Assembly (NCBI RefSeq): GCF_963675165.1
Contig: NC_087389.1
Location: 5,814,621 to 5,878,620, forward strand
From: Halichondria panicea
Taxonomy: Eukaryota > Porifera > Demospongiae > Suberitida > Halichondriidae
DNA length: 64,000 nucleotides
Reading direction: 5' to 3'
In this document: positions 646 through 63,539 of the stretch, one piece after another
How the letters are laid out: the number at the start of each line of letters is the position of its first letter
How positions within the stretch are numbered: position 1 is the first letter of the stretch
The notes under the pieces: model-generated
What the model was told of the DNA's origin: nothing
Databases searched by the model: none
Seen by the model: the letters and a program-made list of their open reading frames with translations, nothing else
Position numbers and translations under genes: made by a program

Positions 646-3600
646 TTACGTAGCTGCTGTCTGACACATTTTAAAGGCCAATTCTTCCTTTCCCATTCTC
701 AACAGTATCTCCACCAGAGCTCTGTAAGTAGCGGCCCCTGGATTATGCTGTCTCCACAGTCTCAAGGCCTTGTCCATCGCTACTTGTGTGCCATTAGCAA
801 GTTGAGCAATTCTGACATCACTTTGCTCTGCAGGACTCAGTCCCAGTTGTACAGCATAGGTGTCCACATTGTCAAAGTGAGCTGCCAGAATGATCATGTC
901 AGTCTCTTTAATTTCAGTGTCAAGTTGAGAGTCTGTCACTTTTGCATGCTCCTTCAATTCTTCAATGGTCACAGTCCTCGGTCCACCAGCTCCTAGGAGA
1001 AGGAAAGGGGTGTGGTTAATGGGCGGAATCTCTGAGAGTGAACAGAACTGTTTGTCAATGACAGAGACATGAAATTCCTAGCTCTCTTAAAAGCAGAACA
1101 CATTAAATTTCTATATAGTTCCTATAAGAACATAATTAATTACCCCAAATTCAATTATTTTATGCATGCATGGTTAACTGTAATCACGTACTGATCCACA
1201 CATACCTGAGTGACTGGTGTGTGGATGTGAAGTGAGTCCTTCAGTGACATCAGATGGTACAGCATCTGTCATTGCTGCATGTATTAATAATAACTGCTAT
1301 AATTAATGCAGTGTAATATAATGTGTTCTGCTTTTAAGAGAGCTAGGAATTTCATGAATACGTAGATGTATATGGATTACCGACAAAGATGACTCACCTG
1401 TTGTATGTTGGTCTGTTCTGTGTGTAGACTGCAGGGCTGTAGTACAAGTAGCCTCGTCACTAGCTGTGGGGTGGTGCTCTACTGGTGATGCTTGAGAAAA
1501 GCTCTGTTCATTGATAAGAGTGTCTGGATCAGTGACATCACTAGGAGTGTCCACTGTATCAACAACCTCATAAACAATTCTGTTGTATTCCGCTGGTTCG
1601 TTAGCGGTTGACCATGAAAGGATACTGTCGAAAACAGCTGAAGATATCTATAATGGATAAGATCGCAGTAAAAAGTTAAAAATAATGATGTATTAATTGC
1701 TACACTCACCGTTTGAGCCTCATCAATCATCTTCGACAGTAGCGTATCCCAAAGAGAATGGAAAGTACGATTCATCTAGGAAATTATAAGATAATTTTTA
1801 TGCATGAATCAAGAATTCACCTCTTCATTTAGTGGAGGTAAACATGTTCTCTCCCACTCAGTCAGCACTGCAGAATTCCTTGATTCCCGTATGATCTGTG
1901 TATTAAGATAAATGCAACATAATCATGAACTATTGAGTGAGTACCTTCAACTGTTCATTGCACATGAGTATCAACTCCTCGTTCACAGGATTACCATAGA
2001 GTCTAACACCGTCCTCCAGGTAACTGAACCCCTCCAGACTAGGGAACAGCTCTGGTAGACACTCAGTGAGAGCTATCACTCCCTCATCATCAATGGAATT
2101 GTGGTTGAGATCCAACCTTTTTAAATTCTTACATATCACATTAGCGAACTTGAGATGGTGGATAAGCATTATGATGTCGGCAGAGGTGAGAGAATAACGC
2201 CACCAGTAAAGTTGTTCCAGATATGGAAATGCTTGAAGAAACTTTGCCAGTAAGAGAGTTCCAGCAGTTCCACTGAAATTGGAACCAGACAAGTCCATCA
2301 CAGTTAAACTGTTAGGGTTGATATTCAGCATCTCACAGGTGACTGTGTATTGAGATTCAGAGTGAAATGAAGTGGTGAGATGGGTAGCTGATAATTCAAT
2401 CTTAGTCAATCGTAACGGAATGTTCTCCACAACTGAACATAATCCAGGTAAACCAAGATTATTATCAGAGAGGAGTAATTTTACCAGATCAGGACAGTGA
2501 GGGGCAATCGACTGTAAGAGGGTGGTCAGTAGAGCTCCATTGACGTCAGCATCATCAGTGAGGGTTTTGGCTAGCTTCAGTACCTTCAGGTTGATAAGAG
2601 CATCAGACAGTACAGCTGTCTCTAATGACTGTATGCCAGACACTCCAAGAGGATTGTGGGATAAGTTCAGTGTTGTAAGGCTCATACAAGATGTGTGTAT
2701 GAATGACGACGTGACGTTAGTGAAGTTGTTATAAGACAACGAGAGGTAATCTAAAGTTGTAAAAGCAGCTGAGGCTCTCCTGAATAGATCAGCAACACCT
2801 TTGTCAGACAACTTAGTCTGCTGGAGGGATAATCGTGTGACTTGCAGTTTACCATTCGCATTGGAAAGTATGTCAGTTAGTTCCTTCAACAGTTTATCAT
2901 CGATTGCACAATGGGATATTATGATAACCATATCATCACAATTTACAGCATGACGAAGAACATAGAACCCAGCTACACAGTCAAAAGTGGTGCTGAAATT
3001 ATCGTCTAATAAATTTGCTCCATACAAATTACAAACTTTTGTGCAGAATCCAGAGTCAGAAGCTTCGAAAGCAGCATGACATAATAAAACCAACTTTTTA
3101 AGCTTTCCAGCGAAGACAAATTGATCCGTCAAACCATGATCCAAACTGATCACCTTATCGCTATGACTACCATTGTACTTACTAGCAATACCAAACATAA
3201 ATCTCCACACCATGTCAAACCGGCCACTGTCAGCATTAGTCTCAACAATCTTCAGTTTCTCATCATTGGGTAGAGTAGCAAGATGGAGGGCAGCCAAGAA
3301 CTCCTGGATGGTCAGGTGAGCAAAGTGAAAAGACAGGCCATGACCTACAGGTAGAAGTGATCGTGCAGACTGCAACAGACCAAAGCACAGCAACTTGTCA
3401 CCAAGTTCGGGTAAGCGAAAGGACAAATCATCTTCTGAGAAACCAGCTGATCTAATAATAAGCACTCGTAGGCAAACTCACACATCAACCAAAATGTGTT
3501 TTGTAGATCATTCGGAATCTTGTCAAAGCTATTGCAGCTAATAGGACAATCAGGGAACTTCTTTTTGACATTACGAAGGATAATGTTAAGAATAATTTGA

Positions 3601-4463
3601 GTGTACAGCTCAGTTAGCGTACGAGGAAGCTCTTGGTCTAAAGTGTGCCACAAGTTACAAACAATGGCACAATTGAGGGGCACAGAACACACACTCTGAA
3701 TGACTGGGTTGTTCTCAAGCTGCTTGATGAGAGAAGAAGCTTTCTCTGGAAATTGCTCAAACTCTGATTCTATGTATTGCTTGATATTCTCCTCATTGAA
3801 ACCAACTACCTCAACCAAACGGTTTACAGAGGGAAGGTCATGAAGAGGAGCTGAAGCAGAAGGTCGTGAGGTGAGGAGAACAGAAGCAAAAGGAAGAACA
3901 TCACCAAAGAGAAGGTCATATAGAAATGAGGTTTCTAATTGATTGTCTTCACTAAGCTCGTCCCAGCCATCAGCTATGATGAGGACACTTTTTCCTTCTC
4001 TTTCTTCCAACTCTTCTACAACAGATTGGCGAATCCTCTCATTGGCATGAAGAAGTTTGAACAGCTCAGCGAGACTTGTGGCAGAGGACACTCGATTCTC
4101 TCTCAGTGGAAGCAACAGAACACAGTTGAATTGTGTCAGGATCTTGCCCTCTGCCCACCCTTCAGCAAGCATGGTACACAGTGTCGTTTTACCAATCCCA
4201 GCATTGCCTTCAACGATGAGCTTCTTGACTGGTTTCTTGCTTTCTTCGACTTTGAATAGGTCACCATGGAGAATTGGAGTACGCTTGACCTTATCATCAG
4301 GTGCACCATGTTGTGGCAAGCCGGCTCTAAATCCTTCTTCTTTTTCAGCCTCCACTAACTGCAAGTTGATGAGCCTGTCTCCTCTAACTGGTGGCCATTG
4401 CTTTTGACGATTCAAGAGTCTTTCTATGTATTTCTGGCAAATGCTAGTAATGAATTTATCCAT
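646..4463 (-). pseudogene. NACHT-LRR-linker-Death gene (NLR type), copy A, one frameshift
   Basis: Model: complement(join(646..992,1206..1265,1398..1647,1710..1775,1821..1895,1945..4463)), with all intron phases compatible. The first exon encodes about 70 N-terminal residues and then a NACHT ATPase: Walker A GNAGIGKTT at about 86-94, Walker B VLIIADGWDEL at about 160-170, and a TSRPSA sensor. A winged-helix-like region and about ten leucine-rich repeats follow (LSLSYNNF, LNLSHNPL, LDLNHNSI). Small exons encode an acidic Ser/Thr-rich linker, and the last exon is a Death domain (TIEELKEHAKVTDSQLD...) ending in TAA. Family knowledge: NLRs sense intracellular danger signals and recruit Death-fold partners. 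The Death domain is C-terminal here, whereas effector domains in NLRs are normally N-terminal. Near 3,438-3,442 one A is missing relative to copy B, shifting frame between NACHT and LRR. An assembly or polymorphism error is possible. Confidence 0.88.
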
Positions 4464-5102
4464 GTTCTGATCAATTTTTAGGAATTGTTTACAGCAAATA
4501 CGAAATATTTGTATAGATTGGTTATTACTAATTTCAAGAGCGTAGTCGGAAGTGACCTGAGATGATGTAATAAAAGCAGCAACAACCTAGCAGAGGATAG
4601 AGAATTGAGATTTGATTACCGTACTTTATCTGACACAGTGTAGGATATGCCCCACCTACGAGGATGATATACGGGGTGCATAATTATCCTCCTCGTATAT
4701 GTGTAGTATATATCTGCATGACTTAATTATACATCTATATAGCTGCATGTTCCAATAAGAGGTGACGTATCAGTGTGGTAGGATTCGAATATTTCAGCGA
4801 ACACTCTGGTGCTTTAAACATATTCAGACATGAAAAGTTATAAGATACATTCCAAGCAACATAGCCAACAAGAGTGCTGTAGTTGTTAGTGTACTATTCA
4901 GTCACACACTGTTCTATTAAACTTAGCTATATCTTGCATTGCATATAGCTGCTTTCCCAGCCTCGTTGTCTCTATAACAATGGTAGCTAGGACACCAACT
5001 ATATAGGCCTGGTATTGATTGTATCTGGGCGTGCATGGTTATAGGAACCAAAAAACAAAAGCAGAGAGATTTTGCAAAAACAACACACCGGCAGTGTTAG
5101 TC
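4464..5102. other. NLR 5' flank, no gene seen
   Basis: This is the upstream region of NLR copy A. A hairpin of 'cgaggatgatatac' type lies near 4,657-4,700 (arms acgaggat / atcctcctcgt). I see no convincing upstream exon or promoter motif. It is conserved in copy B at about 56,320-56,950. Confidence 0.5.
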
Positions 5103-6568: not shown

Positions 6569-7579
6569 GTTAGTCCTACTAGCTTGTACAAGGGGCAGTA
6601 CTTGAGAGCATAATACGAAGCTAAATTATTATACGGGGAAATAATTATGACAGGAAACAAAATGTGAAGAATCTCTGCATTTGTTTCCGGTTCCTGTCAC
6701 GCCCAGATATACAATCAATGTCAGGCCATATTTTTCAACTTCTTTCTATAACGGCTTGGGATCGAGGCTACTTGCATGCAGCTGCATGCTTGTTCTAATT
6801 ATTCCGGACATCTCACGTGCGCTACATCCATGTATAAAGCAATTATACCGGGTTATTGTACAGTATATCGTATAGCGGCCGGGTTAATTTCGTATATTAT
6901 TTTGTATGGAAGAGCATCATAATTATACAAACATTAAAACTACAACTGCATGCAATAGGTCCTGAGCTGTACGAATAATATTTAAATGGTTATTCATACG
7001 AACATTTGCACCAACGAAAATTACTCACCATACGATACTATAAAGTTATACCTCTATGGTTTAGATCACAGGTATCACATTGTCTCTCTACTGAGCAAGG
7101 TTAATGACAGCAAGGACACATTCTGTACACAAGACTTGACATTTATATACATGCCTATAGTCTCGTGGACCCAGACCCAGAAAGAGGGATGCAACATCTG
7201 CGGCTTGCAAGACTAATACATGCTGGTATAAAAACATACGCTATAAATTTATAAATTATAGACTATAGCTAAAGAGGTATCATGGACATGCATATAATTT
7301 ATAATCACTTCAAGTTCTAATTCTCTGTCTAATTTACTGGCTTACCAACTGGTCTCAGTGGCTCAGAATAAATTTTTCAGGGCTTGTTGTTTGTGTAAAC
7401 CTGGATAGGTGGGGCTCATCTGACAAATATTTGTAGAGTCTATACCATTATACTTCATTTGCTCTTTTTAATTCAGGACAGTAATACAATTAATTGTGAC
7501 ATGAAACACAGTAAAGGGGTAGAAACAAATAAAGTGTGGAAATTATGTTCAGTAAAAACGAGTTCAGCTAAAAATGAAG
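6569..7579. other. AT-rich spacer with Ginger1 empty site
   Basis: No gene is recognised. The sequence 'acatgctggtataaa' at about 7,220-7,234 is the unoccupied counterpart of the Ginger1 insertion site in copy B (catgCCGG...CCGGtataaa). The rest matches copy B on both sides of that element. Confidence 0.7.
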
Positions 7580-7680
7580 ATAATGTGTAGCAGCTGTACA
7601 GACTCTGACCAACTTCTTTGAGGAGGGCAGCTGGGTACTTTGTGAAGTGCACTGTTGGCAGAATATCATCCTGTGTGTGT
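7580..7680. repeat. 100-bp exon-like block, first of three
   Basis: The block 'cagactctgaccaacttctt ... gaatatcatcctg' occurs at about 7,590-7,675, 22,520-22,603 and 63,920-64,000. At the first two sites it runs directly into (TG)n; at the third the window ends. Both strands are open (plus QTLTNFFEEGSW, minus DDILPTVHFTK), but no family is recognised and no splice sites frame it clearly. Confidence 0.6.
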
Positions 7681-7816
7681 GTGTGGGGGGGGGCGCAGTC
7701 ATAGTGTGTGTGTGTGAGGGGGTGCAGTCAAAGTGTGTGTGTGTGGGGGGTGCAGTCATAGTGTGTGTGTGTGGGGGGGGGGGGTGCAGTCAAAGTGTGT
7801 GTGGGGGGGGTGAAGT

Positions 7817-7896
<80 letters not shown>

Positions 7897-7949
7897 AGTC
7901 AAAGTGTGTGTGGGGGGGGGGGGTGCAGTCATAGTGTGTGTGTGCGTGC

Positions 7950-7992
<43 letters not shown>

Positions 7993-8075
7993 GTGTGGGG
8001 GGGGGTGCAGTCATAGTGTGTGTGTGTGTGTGTGTGTGGGGGGGGGGTGTGCAGTCATAGTGTGTGTATAGGTAC
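7673..8075. repeat. (TG)n compound microsatellite
   Basis: Tracts of TG separated by 'gggggggtgcagtcatagtg' repeat units, about 400 bp in all. The unit resembles those at 31,785-31,850 and 46,330-46,575. Any long frames here (CVCVCV or HTHTHT) are low-complexity artefacts. Confidence 0.95.
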
Positions 8076-8460
8076 ACTAGTTATAATTCAAGCACAGACA
8101 TGTTGCAGTAGTTGAACATCTTTCAGCAGCCATAACTTTAGTACCGTGACCCCATTTTCAAAAATTTGATGATTTTCGAAAGCTTAGAAAGAGACCTTTC
8201 AAATGATGTATTTCAATCCAATATTTAGATGTGGCCATAATTCAACTTTGAACCATGGGCTATTATTACATGGTATCGTGCCAAAATTGTCATCTCCCAA
8301 ATATCTGGTACCATTTTAAAGGTCTTTTTCGTAAGCTTTCGGAAAATCATAAAATTGGATCCACGGAATTCAAGTTATGGCGACTGAACGAGTCCACTAA
8401 CCAATTGATTAAACGGGGGACATGTACATGTAGTACATACCTGCACATTAATTTATACTA
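8076..8460. repeat. Dispersed repeat with 'gccataactttag' core
   Basis: This block (acggacatgttgcag ... ggtaccattt ... gtacatacctgcac) recurs at 31,858-32,240 and, in part, at 46,600-46,680 and 47,140-47,270. In all three places it leads into the same exon (synphilin-like e5). It is noncoding as far as I can see. Confidence 0.75.
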
Positions 8461-8469
8461 TTCACTCAC

Positions 8470-8669
8470 TCTAACACTTCTTGGGGGGTGGCTGTTCGAT
8501 AGTCAATGGTATTATGGTCCTCCCCTTTATCTGCCGCCTCATGACCTCTGTCCTTTGACCCTCGCGACCTCTTCTTAGCAGCAAGATCTGGGGGTACAGG
8601 GGGACGATTGGAGGATCGTTAGGGGTAGTGGGTGGTTAAGGGGGCGCCTTCCGCACAGGTACTTGACCC
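8470..8669 (-). pseudogene. Solitary relic of synphilin-like exon e5
   Basis: The sequence is nearly identical to 32,248-32,448 and 47,280-47,483, including flanking splice sites. It encodes a proline/lysine-rich segment ending in EVLE in the best copy. Here a base is lost near the 'ggatcgttaggggt' stretch and a TTAA replaces TTCA, which breaks the frame. No neighbouring exons of that gene lie nearby, so this is an isolated duplicated fragment. Confidence 0.75.
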
Positions 8670-9480
8670 CTGCTGGGGGGAGGGGGTTGATAATTAGCAC
8701 AAGAATAATAAGAAGCACTAACAAGCTACGTACATGTAGCTAGCTGCTAGTAATAATTGTTTTTGGCTGCCACGTGCAGAAATGCTAGAGTCAATTGCGT
8801 CGTAACAAGAGTACAGTAGAGTACAGTATGCTTGGCATAATAATTAAAAGTCATAACTTGAGTTGGTGAAATCCATTTAATAAAACATGCGCTCTCTTTA
8901 TGTCCTACATGTATCACATGGTGTAATAAATCTACCACCTTTTTATCTGGTGGAAGAGACCTGGCTCTAGCCTTGGTCAAATTACCCATTTGGGTACAAA
9001 ACTATCTCTGAGATAATCATCTCATGTTATATTTCTTAGAGCTACAAAAGCTAATAACGAGCCTGTACCTGAATGAGATGTAGTCCTGGGTGGTTGAGGA
9101 AGGTGACGACTCTCTTACTGTCCTCCTTGGACACGCTACTTGATAATCTGTACCTATAGAGGAGGATACAGGCACTGAGGCATAAATATAGAACCTTTTT
9201 GCAGTGCCTTACTGGGAAACCTATAGAACTACATTACACAAATCATTAATAGTACAGTACGTGCACTTGCAACAGAGATTTGCCGAGCAAAACCACAATT
9301 ACATTGTTAGCTATGAATATCACATTATCTATAATAATTTCGGCCACTTCTACAAAGAACCTAATCTACCAAAAAAGGGTAAGTATAGAAACTTAATTTC
9401 ACAGAAACCCCAACTTGTATGTACTTTGAGAAGGAATATGATGACTTAAAAATTTAGGGAAATTACTAACTGATTTGTAA
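8670..9480 (-). other. Spacer with one unassigned exon candidate (9,069-9,153)
   Basis: Minus-strand 9,153-9,069 is an 85-nt open segment bounded by CTATAG and GTACAGG. It encodes about 28 residues (YRLSSSVSKEDSKRVV..., then NHPGLHLIQ). I do not recognise the family and cannot connect it to other exons. The rest of the spacer shows no gene. Confidence 0.35.
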
Positions 9481-9485
9481 AGAAA

Positions 9486-9560
9486 GTCCCCCAAGAGGGA
9501 ATTGAACCCACACCTTATCTATCATCTAATCTACTAAACCACCACCCTCTTAGTCATCAC
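9486..9560 (-). repeat. tRNA-like relic or tRNA-derived SINE piece
   Basis: On the minus strand an A-box-like TGGTTTAGTAGATTAG is followed about 25 nt later by a B-box-like GGTTCAATTCC. The cloverleaf does not close cleanly, because the T-stem and acceptor stem overlap. A decayed tRNA or SINE head is therefore more likely than a functional tRNA. Confidence 0.35.
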
Positions 9561-10101
9561 TGTTGTACTCCTCAAAACAGGAAATGGGTGTAGTCTGAAA
9601 CCACCTCCAGCCTAGAGAGAGGTCATGTGACTTGAAAATTCTCTTTGCCCAGTGATGCTTCTTTATTGGAACTCTTATGTACCTCATTCTCCCCTCCCCC
9701 GGCCCCACCAGCACCGGCTAGCAGGGGTCAAAGTGCATCACACACTCACACCTGCACAACAGAAACAGAAGAACAATTAACTTAGTAAATCGATCAGCTC
9801 TGAAACTAGAGTTCAGATCACGAGCTCTTGAGACGGACCAAGTTTCTGGACCTGGTACTGTAGTCTTCCTAGCTTCCTAGCTTCAATGTAAGTTTGTTTA
9901 GGCTAGCCACCATTGAACGTGAAGAGAGTGTCTGCCGATACGACCTCATACTGCAGATTACACTATATTGAATCTGAATTCTGAAAGCTCTCGTTCAGAT
10001 GGTATGCTCAAAACACAAATTTGAACAGGCTATTTTCGGATAAAGACTATGGCCATGGCATAACAGGCACACACAATTCTTCTGAAATGGACTCTTTGCT
10101 T
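9561..10101. other. 3' flank of the eIF4E3-like gene
   Basis: No coding segment is recognised. A minus-strand AATAAA (gttccAATAAAgaag, near 9,665-9,672) could serve as the polyadenylation signal of the eIF4E3-like gene upstream of it. Short repeats of the 'gagttcagatcacgagctc' type echo those in the gene's last intron. Confidence 0.4.
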
Positions 10102-12012
10102 TCAGAAAATATTGTTATCGCACTCTTCAAACAGCTCCACCACAGAGCTCATCTTAACATCCTTCATTTCTAGGGTACTATAATCTGCTCTGTAACTAGA
10201 GTTCTGATGGTCTAAATTGAAAGGGTTTTCTGATTGATCTTAACACATTATCAAAAGGCCTCTTTCTAAGCTTTTAGAAGATACTGAAATTAACATTATT
10301 ATACCAACGCACCCTTCCAACAATTCCACCCTAGAGCTGATCTCCTCAGTGTTGATAAAGTTGAGGACCATTTCCAGTCCAACAAAACATGAGAGAATAC
10401 TAAATCCTCGAGCTCTCTTCATTCCAGATCTGTACGATGTCTTGATCGAACCCTCTTATCCTCACACCCACACCACACACACAGTCACCACCGCCCACAC
10501 ACTCTGAGAACTGCTCACCCACAGCAGCCAACAACAGCTCCTGCCATACCTTGGTCTGAGGGGGCGGGGGATTATGACATGATTATGATTGTGATTTCAA
10601 GTGTAAAATTTTTTTGTATTTTATGCATCCGCTAACCTGTATCTAAGCACACCATTGGAAAAGTAATTCTGAGCTACATGTATCAGGGTTTCATACAGAG
10701 GGGGGATTTCCCACCCCAGCCAAAATCCCTCCCCTATATAGAACTCTGAAAAATTTATGATGTCATATAAAACAAAATGTACTAAGAAGTATACTAGTAA
10801 AACGTCATGATTTGAAACACACAAAAAGCCCAAATTGTACCTCACATGATCATTTCGTAAATTTTTTCCAGGGAGCGGCCTCCCTGAAATAAACGTTTCC
10901 CCCTCACAGCTAAAAATCCTGTATGAAACCCTGGGTCTATTGAATACAGCAAATTGGACAATATGAACACAAATTACGGTCTCTCAAAGATAGCTACCAA
11001 AACGACTGAAATTTGGAAAACAGTGTAAGGCTATCATAACATAGCCGTTGCTTATCACAGAACTTGTATACTATAATCATGGCGCCTCACTGTGTGCATC
11101 TTTCTGACTTTGAATGACCACAATCCACCATGAGCATTATCAGAGTCCTCCCAAATAGGTCTCCTATTCTCATTCCTCGTAAGATGGTAGCTCTCTCTCT
11201 CGTCCAACTGCTCTATGGGACGAATATTGTTGACCACACCCCAAAATGCCTGTTGGTAGGTAGGGGGCGATGTATTGATATTATAATGAACGTGATGGAC
11301 ATCACCTTGATGGTCTTGACTGTACACAAAGGTTTTAGATTCTCAAAGAAATCTTTGGCAGTTGCTCCTCTTCGTGTACTGTATGAATAATGAGCACATT
11401 CACAATATAATTATAATAACACGCACACACCATATTATAGTACAGGAGCACAGCACAAAATACACTATAGAGTACAACACTAGTAGTAGATACAGCATGG
11501 GACAGAGGGCCAGTTGCCTGTATGACTATTCCATAAAACACGAGGATTCTCATGCTACATCTCTGTTTTATATCACGATGATCCCGTACCAAATCATGCC
11601 TCGAGGCTATACGTAATATAACAGGGAAGGGAGTGTATGACTTGACTGCACCTTGTTACCTGGATACAGCACAACGATACTTTACAAGGAGGGGGACAGC
11701 ACAAACACAGAACTGGCATAACCAGCTACACACACACAATGGCCACCACCAGATATATAACTACACCATTTTGTCCCCCTCTCAACTATCCAGTTTCTAC
11801 ACACACACACACGTACGTACACACACTCACGCGTCATGCCAAAACGTCCACGGTGAGTTAAGGAGATAATTATCAGGGTCCCCCCCACTAGGCTCATTCA
11901 CAGCCACGGCATCTTCCCTTGCCTTCCTTGATAGCCTGGGAGAGCTGGTCCGCATCTCTTCACCACCTTGCCCTGTTCTCAGAGTGTCTTCTGCCACTGT
12001 ACCGTCAGCCAT
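10102..12012 (-). CDS. EIF4E3: eIF4E family, class III (eIF4E3-like) cap-binding factor
   Basis: Model: complement(join(10102..10177,10401..10555,11091..11249,11306..11378,11831..12012)), 645 nt, 214 residues, all phases compatible; human eIF4E3 is of similar size. Exon 1 ends NSPWTFWHD; exon 2 has ATAKDFFENLKPLCTVKTIK; exon 3 has AFWGVVNNI and RRPIWED...GGLW; exon 4 has VWQELLLAAVGEQF and VQIWNEES. These are hallmarks of the eIF4E fold. The Trp of PIWED, one partner in the cap sandwich, is present. The first sandwich Trp position aligns with Phe here, in line with class III proteins, which lack that Trp. The start is MADGTV at 12,012; an upstream in-frame Met sits at 12,027. The last exon (...SSVVELFEEC) is the least certain, since a degenerate look-alike lies at about 10,315-10,350. 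Confidence 0.8.
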
Positions 12013-52512: not shown

Positions 52513-55500
52513 TTACGTAGCTGCTGTCTGACACATTTTAAAGGCCAATTCTTCCTTTCCCAATCTCAACAGTATCTCCACCAGAGCTCTGTAAGTAGCG
52601 GCCCCTGGATTATGCTGTTTCCACAGTCTCAAGGCCTTGTCCATCGCTACTTGTGTGCCATTAGCAAGTTGAGCAATTCTGACATCACTTTGCTCTGCAG
52701 GACTCAGTCCCAGTTGTACAGCATAGGTGTCCACATTGTCAAAGTGAGCTGCCAGAATGATCATGTCAGTCTCTTTAATTTCAGTGTCAAGTTGAGAGTC
52801 TGTCACTTTTGCATGCTCATTCAATTCCTCAATGGTCACAGTCCTCGGTCCACCAGCTCCTAGGAGAAGGAAAGGAGTGTGGTTAATGGGCGGAATCTCT
52901 GAGAGTGAACAGAACTGTTTGTCAATGACAGAGACATGAAATTCCTAGCTCTCTTAAAAGCAGAACACATTAAATTTCTATATAGTTCCTAAGAACATAA
53001 TTAATTACCCCAAATTCAATTATTTTATGCATGCATGGTTAACTGTAATCACGTACTGATCCACACATACCTGAGTGACTGGTGTGTGGATATGAAGTGA
53101 GTCCTTCAGTGACATCAGATGGTACAGCATCTGTCATTGCTGCATGTATTAATAATAACTGCTATAATTAATGCAGTGTAATATAATGTGTTCTGCTTTT
53201 AAGAGAGCTAGGAATTTCATGAATACGTAGATGTATATGGATTACCGACAAAGATGACTCACCTGTTGTATGTTGGTCTGTTCTGTGTGTAGACTGCAGG
53301 GCTGTAGTACAAGTAGCCTCGTCACTAGCTGTGGGGTGGTGCTCTACTGGTGATGCTTGAGAGAAGCTCTGTTCATTGATGAGAGTGTCTGGATCAGTGA
53401 CATCACTAGGAGTGTCCACTGTATCAACAACCTCATAAACAATTCTGTTGTATTCCGCTGGTTCGTTAGCGGTTGACCATGAAAGGATACTGTCGAAAAC
53501 AGCTGAAGATATCTATAATGGATAAGATCACAGTAAAAAGTTAAAAATAATGATGTATTAATTGCTACACTCACCGTTTGAGCCTCATCAATCATCTTCG
53601 ACAGTAGCGTATCCCAAAGAGAATGGAAAGTACGATTCATCTAGGAAATTATAAGATAATTTTTATGCATGAATCAAGAACTCACCTCTTCATTTAGTGG
53701 AGGTAAACATGTTCTCTCCCACTCAGTCAGCACTGCAGAATTCCTTGATTCTCGTATGGTCTGTGTATTAAGATAAATGCAACATAATCATGAACTATTG
53801 AGTGAGTACCTTCAACTGTTCATTGCACATGAGTATCAACTCCTCGTTCACAGGATTACCATAGTGTCTAACACCGTCCTCCAGGTAACTGAACCCCTCC
53901 AGACTAGGGAACAGCTCTGGTAGACACTCAGTGAGAGCTATCACTCCCTCATCATCAATGGAATTGTGGTTGAGATCCAACCTTTTTAAATTCTTACATA
54001 TCACATTAGCGAACTTGAGATGGTGGATAAGCATTATGATGTCGGCAGAGGTGAGAGAATAACGCCACCAGTAAAGTTGTTCCAGATATGGAAATGCTTG
54101 AAGAAACTTTGCCAGTAAGAGAGTTCCAGCAGTTCCACTGAAATTGGAACCAGACAAGTCCATCACAGTTAAACTGTTAGGGTTGATATTCAGCATCTCA
54201 CAGGTGACTGTGTATTGAGATTCAGAGTGAAATGAAGTGGTGAGATGGGTAGCTGATAATTCAATCTTAGTCAATCGTAACGGAATGTTCTCCACAACTG
54301 AACATAATCCAGGTAAACCAAGATTATTATCAGAGAGGAGTAATTTTACCAGATCAGGACAGTGAGGGGCAATCGACTGTAAGAGGGTGGTCAGTAGAGC
54401 TCCATTGACGTCAGCATCATCAGTGAGGGTTTTGGCTAGCTTCAGTACCTTCAGGTTGATAAGAGCATCAGACAGTACAGCTGTCTCTAATGACTGTATG
54501 CCAGACACTCCAAGAGGATTGTGGGATAAGTTCAGTGTTGTAAGGCTCATACAAGATGTGTGTATGAATGACGACGTGACGTTAGTGAAGTTGTTATAAG
54601 ACAACGAGAGGTAATCTAAAGTTGTAAAAGCAGCTGAGGCTCTCCTGAATAGATCAGCAACACCTTTGTCAGACAACTTAGTCTGCTGGAGGGATAATCG
54701 TGTGACTTGCAGTTTACCATTCGCATTGGAAAGTATGTCAGTTAGTTCCTTCAACAGTTTATCATCGATTGCACAATGGGATATTATGATAACCATATCA
54801 TCACAATTTACAGCATGACGAAGAACATAGAACCCAGCTACACAGTCAAAAGTGGTGCTGAAATTATCGTCTAATAAATTTGCTCCATACAAATTACAAA
54901 CTTTTGTGCAGAATCCAGAGTCAGAAGCTTCGAAAGCAGCATGACATAATAAAACCAACTTTTTAAGCTTTCCAGCAAACACAAATTGATCCGTCAAACC
55001 ATGATCCAAACTGATCACCTTATCGCTATGACTACCATTGTACTTACTAGCAATACCAAACATAAATCTCCACACCATGTCAAACCGGCCACTGTCAGCA
55101 TTAGTCTCAACAATCTTCAGTTTCTCTTCATTCGGTAGAGTAGCAAGATGGAGGGCAGCCAAGAACTCCTGGATGGTCAGGTGAGCAAAGTGAAAAGACA
55201 GGCCATGACCAACAGGTAGAAGTGATCGTGCAGACTGCAACAGACCAAAGCACAGCAACTTGTCACCAACTTCGGGTAAGCGAAAGGACAAATCATCTTC
55301 TGAGAAAACCAGCTGATCTAATAATAAGCACTCGTAGGCAAACTCACACATCAACCAAAATGTGTTTTGTAGATCATTCGGAATCTTGTCAAAGCTATTG
55401 CAGCTAATAGGACAATCAGGGAACTTCTTTTTGACATTACGAAGGATAATGTTAAGAATAATTTGAGTGTACAGCTCAGTTAGCGTACGAGGAAGCTCTT

Positions 55501-56319
55501 GGTCTAAAGTGTGCCACAAGTTACAAACAATGGCACAATTGAGGGGCACAGAACACACACTCTGAATGACTGGGTTGTTCTCAAGCTGCTTGATGAGAGA
55601 ACTGGAAATTGCTCAAACTCTGATTCTATGTATTGCTTGATATTCTCCTCATTGAAACCAACTACCTCAACCAAACGGTTTACAGAGGGAAGGTCATGAA
55701 GAGGAGCTGAAGCAGAAGGTCGTGAGGTGAGGAGAACAGAAGCAAAAGGAAGAACATCACCAAAGAGAAGGTCATATAGAAATGAGGTTTCTAATTGATT
55801 GTCTTCACTAAGCTCGTCCCAGCCATCAGCTATGATGAGGACACTTTTTCCTTCTTTTTCTTCCAACTCTTCTACAACAGATTGGCGAATCCTCTCATTG
55901 GCATGAAGAAGTTTGAACAGCTCAGCGAGACTTGTGGCAGAGGACACTCGATTCTCTCTCAGTGGAAGCAACAGAACACAGTTGAATTGTGTCAGGATCT
56001 TGCCCTCTGCCCACCCTTCAGCAAGCATGGTACACAGTGTGGTTTTACCAATCCCAGCATTGCCTTCAACGATGAGCTTCTTGACTGGTTTCTTGCTTTC
56101 TTCGACTTTGAATAGGTTGCCATGGAGAATTGGAGTACGCTTGACCTTATCATCAGGTGCACCATGTTGTGGCAAGCCGGCTCTAAATCCTTCTTCTTTT
56201 TCAGCCTCCACTAACTGCAAGTTGATGAGCCTGTCTCCTCTAACTGGTGGCCATTGCTTTTGACGATTCAAGAGTCTTTCTATGTATTTCTGGCGAATGC
56301 TAGTAATGAATTTATCCAT
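52513..56319 (-). pseudogene. NACHT-LRR-linker-Death gene (NLR type), copy B, one frameshift
   Basis: Model: complement(join(52513..52859,53071..53130,53263..53512,53575..53640,53686..53760,53810..56319)). Domains and splice sites are as in copy A, with few residue changes (for example E to K before GKSVLII, L to H in the last LRR exon). The NACHT-LRR junction that is shifted in copy A is intact here (LLLDQLVFSEDD). Instead, 10 bp are missing at 55,600/55,601 (gagagaACTGG against gagagaAGAAGC...CTGG in copy A). This breaks the frame after the NACHT sensor region, at ESEFEQFP. Neither copy can make the full protein as read. The start MDKFITS at 56,319 matches copy A. Confidence 0.88.
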
Positions 56320-56954
56320 GTTCTGATCAATTTAGGAATTGTTTACAGCAAATACGAAATATTTGTATAGATTGGTTATTACTAATTTCAAGAGCGTAGT
56401 CGGAAGTGACCTGAGATGATGTAATAAAAGCAGCAACAACCTAGCAGAGGATAGAGAATTGAGATTTGATTACCGTACTTTATCTGACACAGTGTAGGAT
56501 ATGCCCCACCTACAAGGAGGATATACGGGGTGCATAATTATCCTCCTCGTATATGTGTAGTATATATCTGCATGACTTAATTATACATCTATATAGCTGC
56601 ATGTTCCAATAAGAGGTGACGTATCAGTGTGGTAGGATTCGAATATTTCAGCGAACACTCTGGTGCTTTAACATATTCAGACATGAAAAGTTATAAAATA
56701 CATTCCAAGCAACATAGCCAACAAGAGTGCTGTAGTTGTTAGTGTACTATTCAGTCACACACTGTTCTATTAAACTTAGCTATCTTGCTTGCATATAGCT
56801 GCTTTCCCAGCCTCGTTGTCTCTAAAACAATGCTAGCTATAGGACGCCAACTATGTAGGCCTGGTATTGATTGATTCTGGACGTGCATGGTTATAGGAAC
56901 CAAAAAACAAAAGCAGAGAGATTTTGCAAAAACAACACACCGGCAGTGTTAGTC
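56320..56954. other. NLR copy B 5' flank
   Basis: Collinear with 4,464-5,102; no gene recognised. Confidence 0.5.
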
Positions 56955-59107: not shown

Positions 59108-59111
59108 CCGG

Positions 59112-59275
59112 TGTCATAGGAATGAATGACTCCCCTAAATAATGACTCCCGGTCACTCCTACCTAGGCACCAGTGACTCCCGGTCACTCACGCCTAGGAA
59201 TAAATGACTCCCCCGGTCACTGACTCCTAGTCACGAATGACTCCCCCCTGGAAAAAATGACTCCCCCGAAATTTA
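59112..59275. repeat. Ginger1 left terminal region with TGACTCC repeats
   Basis: Seven copies of TGACTCC(C) spaced about 15-35 bp occur within the first 165 bp, most within AATGACTCCCC. These are plausible transposase-binding repeats (inference). Confidence 0.75.
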
Positions 59276-59697
59276 TATATGAACACTGATCCATAGAGCT
59301 AAAGAGACTTCAGGGGCTATACTAAGTACATGCATCCTCAAAACCTGTCACAGTGTGACTATACAATCAAGCTCAAGACTGTTATCAGGACTGCATGCAT
59401 GCTATCTGTGAGAGACCTGTTTAATACATAGTATGACTATAATTACAGCTGTTCCTTATATACTGTAAACTGGTTCAGTTTAGCTATTAGTACCTATAGT
59501 ACTTATACTACATTGTACACTCTGTTCACATTTTCACACGTCTCACGGTCACTGTAAAGCAAAACTTATAATACAACAACATCCATCAAAATAACAAATA
59601 GATCTACAGTGCATGAAAAACAAACAAAACAACAGTGCAAATTAACAGTGTATAAACAAAAACAGCTAGTGGAAGATAACGAAATGCTAAAAAAATT

Positions 59698-62600
59698 CTA
59701 TCTAGATCTACAAGTAGGACAAAACCAATCTCCAAGTGGAGATACTTTAATACGAACACATTTATAATGATACCACACAGTACATGTGTCGCACTGGACC
59801 ATTTCATCATAACAGTCAGGGCGGAGACAAGGGCAGTATATCGTAATTACTATGCTGGAAAATCTTTCTGGTCTCTTGCGGCTACTAACATCTTTTGACT
59901 TTGGAAATCTTCTGAGTTTCTCATTTTCAAAGCAACGCACAAGATGTGGCCTCATTTTGTCTTCATTTAGGGTGATGGTATCCAGATTGTCTCCTTGCAA
60001 TGCGTGGTATGCAGCGGCAATTGCAAACAAACCACAGTTGTTACTGCCACTGCTCTGCTGTTGAATGGAGGCCACAGATAGTAACAGCCCATTGTGCGCT
60101 ATTAAAGGCTTATACATCTGTGCGATTTGCAGCTCAGCACTTGGCTCCAGGTCTTTCCCATATTGGAAGCAGCTATCAAAGAGGAAAAGTTCCCCCTTGA
60201 TGAGTGCTGTCGCAATCCAGTGATGCCTCTCTGTTACAAAGAATATCTGCACGGCTGTATAGGATATATATGATATAATTATTATACGGTACGGCCAAGG
60301 ATGAGGATGAGGTATAATTATACCAATACTATAATAATACTACTATTAATTTAAGTAGAAATTATACCTGTGGCTTCACTACTAGTGACTGCAGGAAAGG
60401 ACATCTTCTGAACCAGAAGAGTAGAATAACAGCCTTCAATATTTGGAAATTGCATTCGCATCAGTTTGTGCGCAGCATACATATGACGGTCAGAAAGCAT
60501 CCCGCTCTCAGCAAGAACTACATCCTTGTCTCCCGTCCTCAGGTCCAAATCCTTCACCCAGTAACTTGAATTCTGTCGAATGTGCACACAATAATTATAA
60601 TGAACGGTTTATAGTGTGCATGCACATAATTATTAATAATAATTGTAATTAACGATAGCTCCTGTTAACAAGTATATAACTATATACCTTTCTTGTTACA
60701 GATTGAGTAGTCCTTTGCTTCTTCAAAGGTGGCTCCATAGAGGATGCAGTCTTAACCTGAGAGAAGGGGGCGTCTCGCTTGCGAGAGGAGTGAGCATCTG
60801 GCTTGTGAGAGGAGGGGACGTCTGGCTTGTGAGAGGAGGGAGCGGCTGGCTTGTGAGAGGAGGGGACGTCTGGCTTGTGAGAGGAGGGAGCGGCTGGCTT
60901 GTGAGAGGAGGGGACGTCTGGCTTGTGAGAGGAGGGGACGTCTGGCTTGTGAGAGGAGGGAGCGGCTGGCTTGTGAGAGGAGGGGACGTCTGGCTTGTGA
61001 GAGGAGGGAGCGGCTGGCTTGTGAGAGGAGGGGACGTCTGGCTTGTGAGAGGAGGGAGCGGCTGGCTTGTGAGAGGAGGGGGCGTCTGGCTTGTGAGAAG
61101 AGGGAAAATCACAATTTTTTTCCCACAGCTTCTAAAAATGGAGTGTATAATTATAAAGAAACATGAAACATTAAATTAATATCGTAAAGAGAAATGTAAT
61201 GTAATTATAATTAGCTTCAAAATCTAGAGACACATGCATTATACCTTGCTTGGGTCTTTCATAGGAGTACTCGTCAAAGAAGGGTTAAACTGATCGAGAG
61301 ATTCATCGTGATGGTTGTCTGATAATTCGGAAGGATCCGAGAGAGAACTATGTTGATCAAAGATAGGTTTTTCGGAGTCTGAGCCATGGTAATGCTTTAA
61401 CCGCTGTTGGTTAACAGCCTTTTTTAAGGTCTTTCCAGTCTTAGGGTTGGCAATCTTAAAGACTCCCTTGTCCAAGCACTCCACCACCGTGTATGGGCCT
61501 AACCACCGAGGCTTCAGCTTGTCTCCCTTCTTACATTCCCTGGCTGAATTCCTCAGCCAGACCAAAGTCCCAGTCTTAAACACCTATATAATTAGAAAAA
61601 TGACATGGCTATGACATTAAACGAGTAATGAAAATAGCCATGCTACGCTCATACAATGATATAGCCTGCTCACCCTCTTGTCTGCATGCTTCCGATCATA
61701 GTACATCTTGTCCTTTTCTTGGGCATTGTCAATGTTCTTCTTGGCTTTGCTGTGGATATCATCCTTTAACTTTGTAACAGCTCGAGCATGGGTCATAATG
61801 GCACTAATGTCCCAGCTCTGCTCAAGTTCACCCTCGCTGCCTAACTCCAGTTGAATAGGGAGTACAGGTTTCCTGCATGTGGAATGTTATAACAATAATG
61901 CATGCATGCCAGATTATCATGTAATTATTATAATAATTATAATTATGAACAACTCACCGACAGAACATCAACTCGAAAGGTGAATACTTCGTTGCCTTTT
62001 GCTTACTCGTCCTATAAGCAAAGAGAATAGCGGGCAAGTGGTAGTCCCAGTCGGTCTGTGAGTCATTCACATATTTGAGTAGTGCTGTTTGAAGTGTTTG
62101 ATTGAAACGTTCAGTTAGCCCGTTGGTTTGTGGGTGGTAAGCTGAAGTGACCCTGTGCTCTGTTCCAGTGAATCGAAAAAGCTCTGTGTTGACCTGATTA
62201 ACAAACTCACGGCCTTGGTCCGATATCAGCACCTCACAAAACCCAAACCTGCGTGCATGTATAACCATAATCATTAAATACGTGTTATTATAATTATGTG
62301 TAGAGATGCATGTGATTACAATTTCACACACATGCATAGCTTACCGACAAAACAAGTTGTACAGGAACATTGCCACTCCAAATGCAGTTTTGTCAGGGAG
62401 TGGGGCTGCTTCAGCCCATTTGCTAAAATAATCGACCAATGTTACCACATATTTGCTGCCATTGGGTGTAATCGGCAAAGGTCCTATCAAGTCTATGCCA
62501 ACCTATAAAGTGAATTACATAATTATAATTAATATATGATTGTGCTCAAAACAAATAATTATTATGCAATGCCATAAAAATTATAGTGTACATATACCTG

Positions 62601-63109
62601 ATGCCAGACTTTGGGTTGTACAGATATCGGATGGAGTTTGGCATTTGTCTTTACAAATGCTGGGTTCATTCTCTGGCACTGGCTGCAGTTCTTTACATAC
62701 TCTCGAATCTCCTCCACCATCGACTTCCAGTAGAATCTAGAACATATCTTGTCTATAGTTCTATCTCTTCCAAAGTGGCCACCAGCTGTTCCTGCATGCA
62801 TCAATAGATTACAAGCATACATACATGCTCTATTACCTACTATTATCATTTTACCAAAGCCATAATAATTATTATACCTGCATGGCAATCTTCGAGGATT
62901 CTTGATTTCTCCTCATTGCTGCGCACACATATCCTCCAGTCAGCTGCATCAGCAGCTTTGGTGTGCTTCTTGTAATATAGGCTACCATTTTCAAACTTAA
63001 AGTTCTGCCTGCATTTTCTTCTAAAGTTTGCCTTCTCTGTTTTGCTGTTAATAGTAGGAGGGTATTCTCCTTTTCGTAAATAGTTTTCAATCTCTTGTAA
63101 ATTCTCCAT
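59698..63109 (-). CDS. Ginger1 transposase: integrase, Ulp1-like protease, PHD finger
   Basis: Model: complement(join(59698..60254,60368..60572,60688..61131,61245..61583,61674..61872,61958..62248,62345..62502,62598..62791,62878..63109)), 872 residues, no internal stop, every GT-AG junction in phase. Order: a YPPT...SLYY segment (residues ~15-45); HHCC zinc finger (H76, H83, C113, C116); integrase core with D146, D205 and E241, where D205-E241 have the DD35E spacing; GPY motif at 387-389; a tandem SSHKP repeat linker (about 475-590); C48/Ulp1-like protease with H699, D714, an upstream Gln and C761 (NNCGLF); C-terminal PHD finger (828-869). The integrase would cut and join element ends. The protease is expected to act on SUMO or a related modifier, and the PHD finger to bind histone tails. 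Start chosen at MENLQEIENY; an upstream ATG at 63,135 is in another frame. Confidence 0.9.
60775..61105. repeat. 24-bp tandem repeat inside the transposase gene
   Basis: About 13 units of 'ctggcttgtgagaggaggg(ga/ag)cgt/ggc'. On the coding (minus) strand they encode alternating SSHKPDVP and SSHKPAAP octapeptides. The unit length is a multiple of three, so copy-number change leaves the frame intact. The plus-strand and third-frame readings are shadows. Confidence 0.92.
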
Positions 63110-63424
63110 TTCTTGCTGCCTTCTTCAAATGACATGACTGTGAACGATCACTGGTTTTATACCATAGATCTAGCTGTCACTTGCTGTCAACTACAGGATA
63201 GAACAATTAACCTTGCAACTCTGCTCTTCACACATTTATAGGTCTACATTCCAGCTGTCACTTGCTGTCTACTACAGGATGAACACTTGCTTCATTGCTA
63301 CCTTGCATGCTACTACTAACCTTGCTCTTCATCCTGCATGGCTCTTCATTCTCTACTATATGTCTATGAGGAGTGCATGAATGTACTCTTGCTACTATAT
63401 ACTTACATTGATGGCAACATTGGC

Positions 63425-63535
63425 GGAACAAACATGCGCATAGGGGAGTCATTTATTCCTGGGGGAGTCACCCACACCTTAGGCAGGAATGACCGGGGAG
63501 TCACTCCCACCGGGGAGTCATTTATTCCTCTGACA
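63425..63535. repeat. Ginger1 right terminal region with GGAGTCA repeats
   Basis: Four inverted copies of the TGACTCC motif in the last 95 bp (read here as GGAGTCA), two of them inside GGGGAGTCATTTATTCC. Together with the left end this makes the terminal inverted repeat longer but interrupted. Confidence 0.75.
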
Positions 63536-63539
63536 CCGG

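Follow-up and report, generated by a model that had tools for sequence, protein, structure and literature searches.

A coding-intact and very recently mobile Ginger1 DNA transposon in the sponge Halichondria panicea

Introduction

Does the integrase gene near the right end of the 64,000-bp stretch analysed here (hereafter the window; positions 5,814,621 to 5,878,620 of contig NC_087389.1 of the halichondriid sponge Halichondria panicea) belong to a DNA transposon of the Ginger1 group, and has that transposon moved recently? The transposases of Ginger1 elements are closely related to the integrases of long terminal repeat (LTR) retrotransposons. The group was defined by Bao et al. (2010; PMC2836005), where hydra, Aplysia, lancelet and aphid are named as hosts, and its members have TGTNR ends and duplicate CCGG or CCGT/ACGG. 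Among the titles and abstract openings listed in searches of open-licence papers, none describes a Ginger1 element of sponges; Repbase lies outside that scope and may hold a named sponge family. The evidence presented below indicates that the element is very probably an autonomous Ginger1 cut-and-paste transposon whose coding region is intact and which moved in this sponge very recently.

Structure of the element and its gene

The Ginger1 element is complete, occupying 4,424 bp (59112-63535) with CCGG on either side. Its termini, TGTCA...TGACA, conform to the TGTNR pattern of Ginger1 and recur at the located ends in 19 of 21 copies. A minus-strand gene of nine exons and eight GT-AG introns, with phases that fit, encodes 872 codons (Table 1). 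These ends, flanks and exons had been read in a first-pass annotation of the sequence, together with HHCC, DD35E, GPY, Ulp1-like and PHD signatures and an octapeptide linker, and all are borne out. The inverted-repeat arms measure 31 bp and match at 90%, flank counted in; when subterminal repeats are included, the terminal comparison runs to 108 columns at 73%. With three mismatches allowed at most, the subterminal motif TGACTCCC, an 18-mer, has five occurrences in the window, against 0.04 expected.

The H2C2 finger, DDE core and GPY/F motif are all present in the protein. Upstream of the finger, YP, F and LYY can be seen by eye, a comparison with the Ginger1 YPYY motif made without a published alignment. 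The C terminus has a Ulp1-like protease fold, recognized from the predicted structure and a Foldseek search, and the His, Asp, Gln and Cys encoded in exon 9 are presumably its catalytic residues. The linker of exon 7 has low confidence in the structure model and is probably disordered. A predicted H. panicea protein, LOC135348618 isoform X3 (P0001, 870 aa), is the element protein minus two residues, at 100% identity, and falls in a cluster of 48 sequences. It implies an exon 2 acceptor 6 nt downstream (62785 vs 62791) and an H2C2 spacing shorter by two residues.

The PHD finger has a complete C4HC3 set, with Tyr, Met and Trp at putative cage positions. Across an alignment of 39 rows, related PHDs have Trp in 17 of 20 letters at its position, and conservation at the Tyr position is weak, with aromatic residues in at least 7 of 16. 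The nearest solved fingers are those of YNG2, ING and TAF3, which read methylated lysine 4 of histone H3 (H3K4). The finger of the element appears to resemble readers of trimethylated H3K4 (H3K4me3), tentatively so for the group. A precedent is RAG2, a transposase-derived recombinase that likewise carries a PHD finger.

Copies in the genome

In the 131.5 Mb of genome searched, the left end gave at least 41 match rows (40 of 81 candidates scored) and the right end at least 42 (40 of 68), one copy being able to yield more than one row. Twenty copies were retrieved, 21 with that of the window; both ends were located in 19, and no left end was found for L049 and L050. Seventeen could be aligned with the window copy, three others (L046, L048 and L051) being excluded as heavily rearranged. 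Twelve of the 18 aligned copies are coding-intact, with an uninterrupted reading frame and none of the 16 splice dinucleotides lost, and six of the twelve encode an identical protein. Mean divergence among the intact copies is 0.075% (66 pairs). Apart from one Ginger1 end that is shared, their flanks (about 445 bp per side) are unrelated. These results show that copies have multiplied recently at unlinked sites and that the family was mobile very recently, as the first-pass annotation had proposed for an intact Ginger1. Mutation rates in animals are about 1e-9 to 1e-8 per site per year, at which the intact insertions would be well under one million years old.

Whether the family moves at present is a separate matter. 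The same element with the same intact copies could be the product of a very recent burst since silenced by the host, which differs from our reading in present activity only and otherwise overlaps it; we regard such a silent burst as quite possible, if short of probable. In its favor, the six aligned copies that do not belong to the young set differ from the window copy by 1.2-2.7%, and five of them (L042, L043, L045, L049 and L050) are broken, with stop codons, shifted frames or damage to splice sites, indicating turnover. The sixth, L047, has an open frame, with one splice dinucleotide flagged in an alignment-based reading. Against it, L032 and L034, on different contigs, are the same letter for letter over 4437 bp, and the ten closest copies differ by a mean of 2.1 substitutions per pair (45 pairs).

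Target sites and empty sites

Matching 4-bp duplications flank 16 of the 19 copies with both ends: CCGG in nine, CCGT in three, and ACGG, CCGA, TCGT and TGGG in one each. These agree with the CCGG or CCGT/ACGG duplication of Ginger1, and CCGG flanks do occur at other copies. The unoccupied paralogous site reported earlier within the window was also found (Table 1). Of the three such sites that were read, the other two lie outside the window and have exactly one CCGG each, which shows directly that CCGG was duplicated on insertion.

The insertion lies on contig C13, in a stretch that recurs there at graded identities. An empty site could in principle be the scar of a precise excision; that reading is less simple, since the element is absent from three paralogues, two of which retain a single CCGG. 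False duplication of haplotypes is an unlikely source of the paralogues, given that the stretch recurs several times on C13 at graded identities. The location of the window in a tandemly duplicated region also invites the view that segmental duplication, and not transposition, multiplied the copies, or that gene conversion homogenized them. This is very improbable, since the flanks of the twelve intact copies are unrelated apart from the one Ginger1-end pair and the duplications vary by copy. As a minor effect, gene conversion could have lowered the divergence.

The target may be longer than 4 bp. For an extended palindrome, GTACCGGTAC, the score of the 16 sites was reached by 3 of 20000 random draws of CCGG sites, the consensus being refitted to each draw; the draws take their background from CCGG in the window only, and 7 of the 16 sites are without the CCGG core. 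When only the nine CCGG sites were considered, the score was reached by 1177 of 20000 draws. The longer target is thus tentative.

Relation to Gypsy integrases

Given its relatives, the element might be what is left of a Gypsy LTR retrotransposon, with the integrase alone retained. Its integrase is indeed homologous to that of Ty3 (E 1e-30), and many rve matches lie in long open frames of the genome (best 150 of 389 candidates scored). However, TIRs (terminal inverted repeats) and 4-bp duplications are present at both ends, and a protease fold and PHD finger at the C terminus of the protein. No terminal direct repeats were found when the element was compared with the window, and the Pfam scan of the spliced protein gave no reverse transcriptase domain. 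Among the 120 relatives listed of 586, one, P0010 of Ephydatia muelleri, has such a domain. A Gypsy-type identity for P0010 was rejected: by eye, its integrase precedes gag- and reverse transcriptase-like sequence, the wrong order for Gypsy, and it is probably a fused gene model.

The 24 rows of the integrase tree include 19 Ginger-type sequences, labelled by their domains, and four Gypsy sequences; named Ginger1 references, Ginger2 and Maverick are not among them. In this tree the window protein falls in a clade (98/98) with one Oopsacas protein and two of Ephydatia, P0003 and the fused model P0010; the four Gypsy rows (Ty3 and three pieces from this genome, labelled by eye) group separately (90/98). 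The Gypsy fragment can hence be set aside as hardly credible. A domesticated host gene of the GIN1 kind, to which the eight introns and the prediction as an ordinary gene might point, is no more credible in view of twelve coding-intact copies at unrelated sites, their duplications and the empty target.

Several observations weigh against an intact, recently mobile Ginger1 transposon. Flanking 4-mers differ in three of the 19 copies (L041, L046 and L051), and six of the 18 aligned copies fail the intactness test. The contiguous TIR is shorter than the 40-270 bp or so published for Ginger1. Pfam does not call Ulp1 in the protein, and the structure model has a predicted template-modelling score (pTM) of 0.39 and a mean predicted local distance difference test score (pLDDT) of 72.9, so that the domain folds are usable and the domain arrangement is not. 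Several branches of the integrase tree are long, and its 19 Ginger-type rows were not recovered together as a single clade (0% of bootstrap trees; 2 changes). The first-pass annotation had named three outcomes as contrary to its proposal: an LTR or reverse transcriptase in full-length relatives, other copies without CCGG flanks, and an integrase placed inside Gypsy. All three were tested, and both the Ginger1 assignment and recent activity are supported.

Ginger1 ends next to Ginger1 ends

Four of the 19 two-ended copies adjoin another Ginger1 end, L041, L044 and L047 across CCGG and L051 across CCGT. At the right end of L041 (C2:3344688-3344703), two copies of the window's family stand head to tail, separated by 16 bp that hold an incomplete repeat of the terminus. 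CCGGTGTCATA sites number 289 in the genome, against 61 for the reversed control, and TGACACCGGTGTCA sites 10 against 1. A binomial test for three adjoining cases gives 1e-5, assuming one CCGG per kb, a density taken from this window only. The adjacency of Ginger1 ends is offered as an observation, with chromatin bias as an alternative to a preference of Ginger for Ginger.

Some of the adjoining ends, across CCGG or CCGT, are those of a second Ginger1-type family, family B (L053:338-3978 and L055:1633-4922). It resembles the window's family in encoding Ulp1-PHD and in its ends, which where read are TGTCATA bordered by CCGG or CCGT; its TIR, TGTCATAAAATTTTGGGCCC, and its proline-rich linker differ, and the Ulp1-PHD exons are 47-48% identical. 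With the family-B exon as genome query (best 150 of 408 candidates scored), at least 11 full-length rows were obtained at 98-99%, the source of the query included, at least 20 at 47-49%, which by position are the window's family, and at least 15 at 44-45%. These identity classes suggest separate families.

A possible mechanism

The integrase-type transposase would most likely bind the TIR and the subterminal repeats. By homology with retroviral and Ty3 integrases, it would cut at the TG...CA ends and attach these to the two strands of a CCGG-like target at positions staggered by 4 bp, accounting for the 4-bp duplications that are seen. The protease, of Ulp1/NEDP1 type, would probably take SUMO or NEDD8 off the transposase, or off chromatin or repair factors of the host, and the PHD finger would probably steer the transposase to H3K4-methylated chromatin. 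That the family is moving now in living sponges, that its PHD finger guides it to H3K4-methylated chromatin, and that a preference for the CCGG duplications of resident Ginger1 elements builds end-to-end arrays, is as a whole an unlikely, though conceivable, combination.

How a Ginger1-type enzyme excises its DNA was given as unknown by Bao et al. (2010; PMC2836005). A dozen near-identical coding-intact copies, with known ends and clean empty sites, make the excision question directly testable, and the same family allows the roles of the SUMO/NEDD8-type protease and of the PHD finger to be assayed.

Features and neighborhood of the insertion

The insertion lies about 2.8 kb from the open frame of an NLR-like gene. 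Tandemly duplicated NLR-like genes occupy 649-4586 and 52516-56331 of the window on the minus strand; in the six open frames scanned, NACHT and LRR were found, and a Death-like match below cut-off. Relatives of window positions 7500-10500 recur on contigs C13 (about 5.0 to 6.1 Mb) and C1.

Table 1. Positions in the window of the element, its exons and the paralogous empty site
Feature	Position	Strand	Remarks
Paralogous unoccupied site	6723..7675	+	Uninterrupted; target is CTGG at 7223-7226
Left target-site duplication, CCGG	59108..59111	.	From 4-mers of copies and paralogous empty sites with single CCGG
Left TIR core (TGTCA...)	59112..59135	+	Followed by subterminal TGACTCCC repeats to about 59266
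Exon 9	59698..60254	-	Ulp1-like catalytic residues, PHD finger, stop codon
Exon 8	60368..60572	-	N-terminal part of Ulp1-like protease
Exon 7	60688..61131	-	Linker with octapeptide repeats P..PSSHK (24-bp units, 60758-61104)
Exon 6	61245..61583	-	GPY motif, C-terminal integrase domain; Pfam SH3_Tf2-1 only below cut-off
Exon 5	61674..61872	-	Long helix after core (structure model)
Exon 4	61958..62248	-	Integrase core, second Asp and Glu (DD35E)
Exon 3	62345..62502	-	Integrase core, first catalytic Asp
Exon 2	62598..62791	-	H2C2 zinc finger
Exon 1	62878..63109	-	Start codon and first part of H2C2 finger
Right TIR core (...TGACA)	63512..63535	-	Subterminal repeat copy at 63443-63460
Right target-site duplication, CCGG	63536..63539	.	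From flanking 4-mers of copies

Comparison with known systems

The integrases of Ty3 and foamy virus are like that of the element in their H2C2 finger, DDE core and C-terminal domain. They differ in that they serve retroelements and are not known to come with TIRs, Ulp1 or PHD. The closest comparison in another sponge is with P0003 of Ephydatia muelleri, whose integrase region is 68% identical over 284 columns and whose Ulp1 and PHD are both above Pfam cut-offs. In the Ulp1-PHD part identity drops to 34% (82/241), and by eye P0003 has no octapeptide linker. In two echinoderm proteins, P0016 (Apostichopus japonicus) and P0033 (Strongylocentrotus purpuratus), a Ginger1-type integrase is fused to a ubiquitin-specific protease (UCH, PF00443). 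At the level of proteins, this is a third protease class next to the OTU and Ulp1 listed in 2010 (PMC2836005).

The element is a sponge member of Ginger1 whose architecture is already known. The first-pass annotation had singled out the combination with a PHD finger; Ulp1 with PHD is not new, since Table 1 of Bao et al. (2010; PMC2836005) lists Ginger1-9_HM of Hydra with both. What is added here is a sponge family with near-identical copies, a PHD finger that may be of the H3K4me3-reader kind, a tentative longer target, and Ginger1 ends that adjoin across CCGG or CCGT. Compared by its published description rather than by sequence, Ginger1-9_HM shares with the sponge element the integrase domains, Ulp1 and PHD. 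It is 3,758 bp long, with two introns and a TIR of 120 bp (PMC2836005). The sponge element, at 4,424 bp, has eight introns, and its TIR core is short and accompanied by subterminal repeats.
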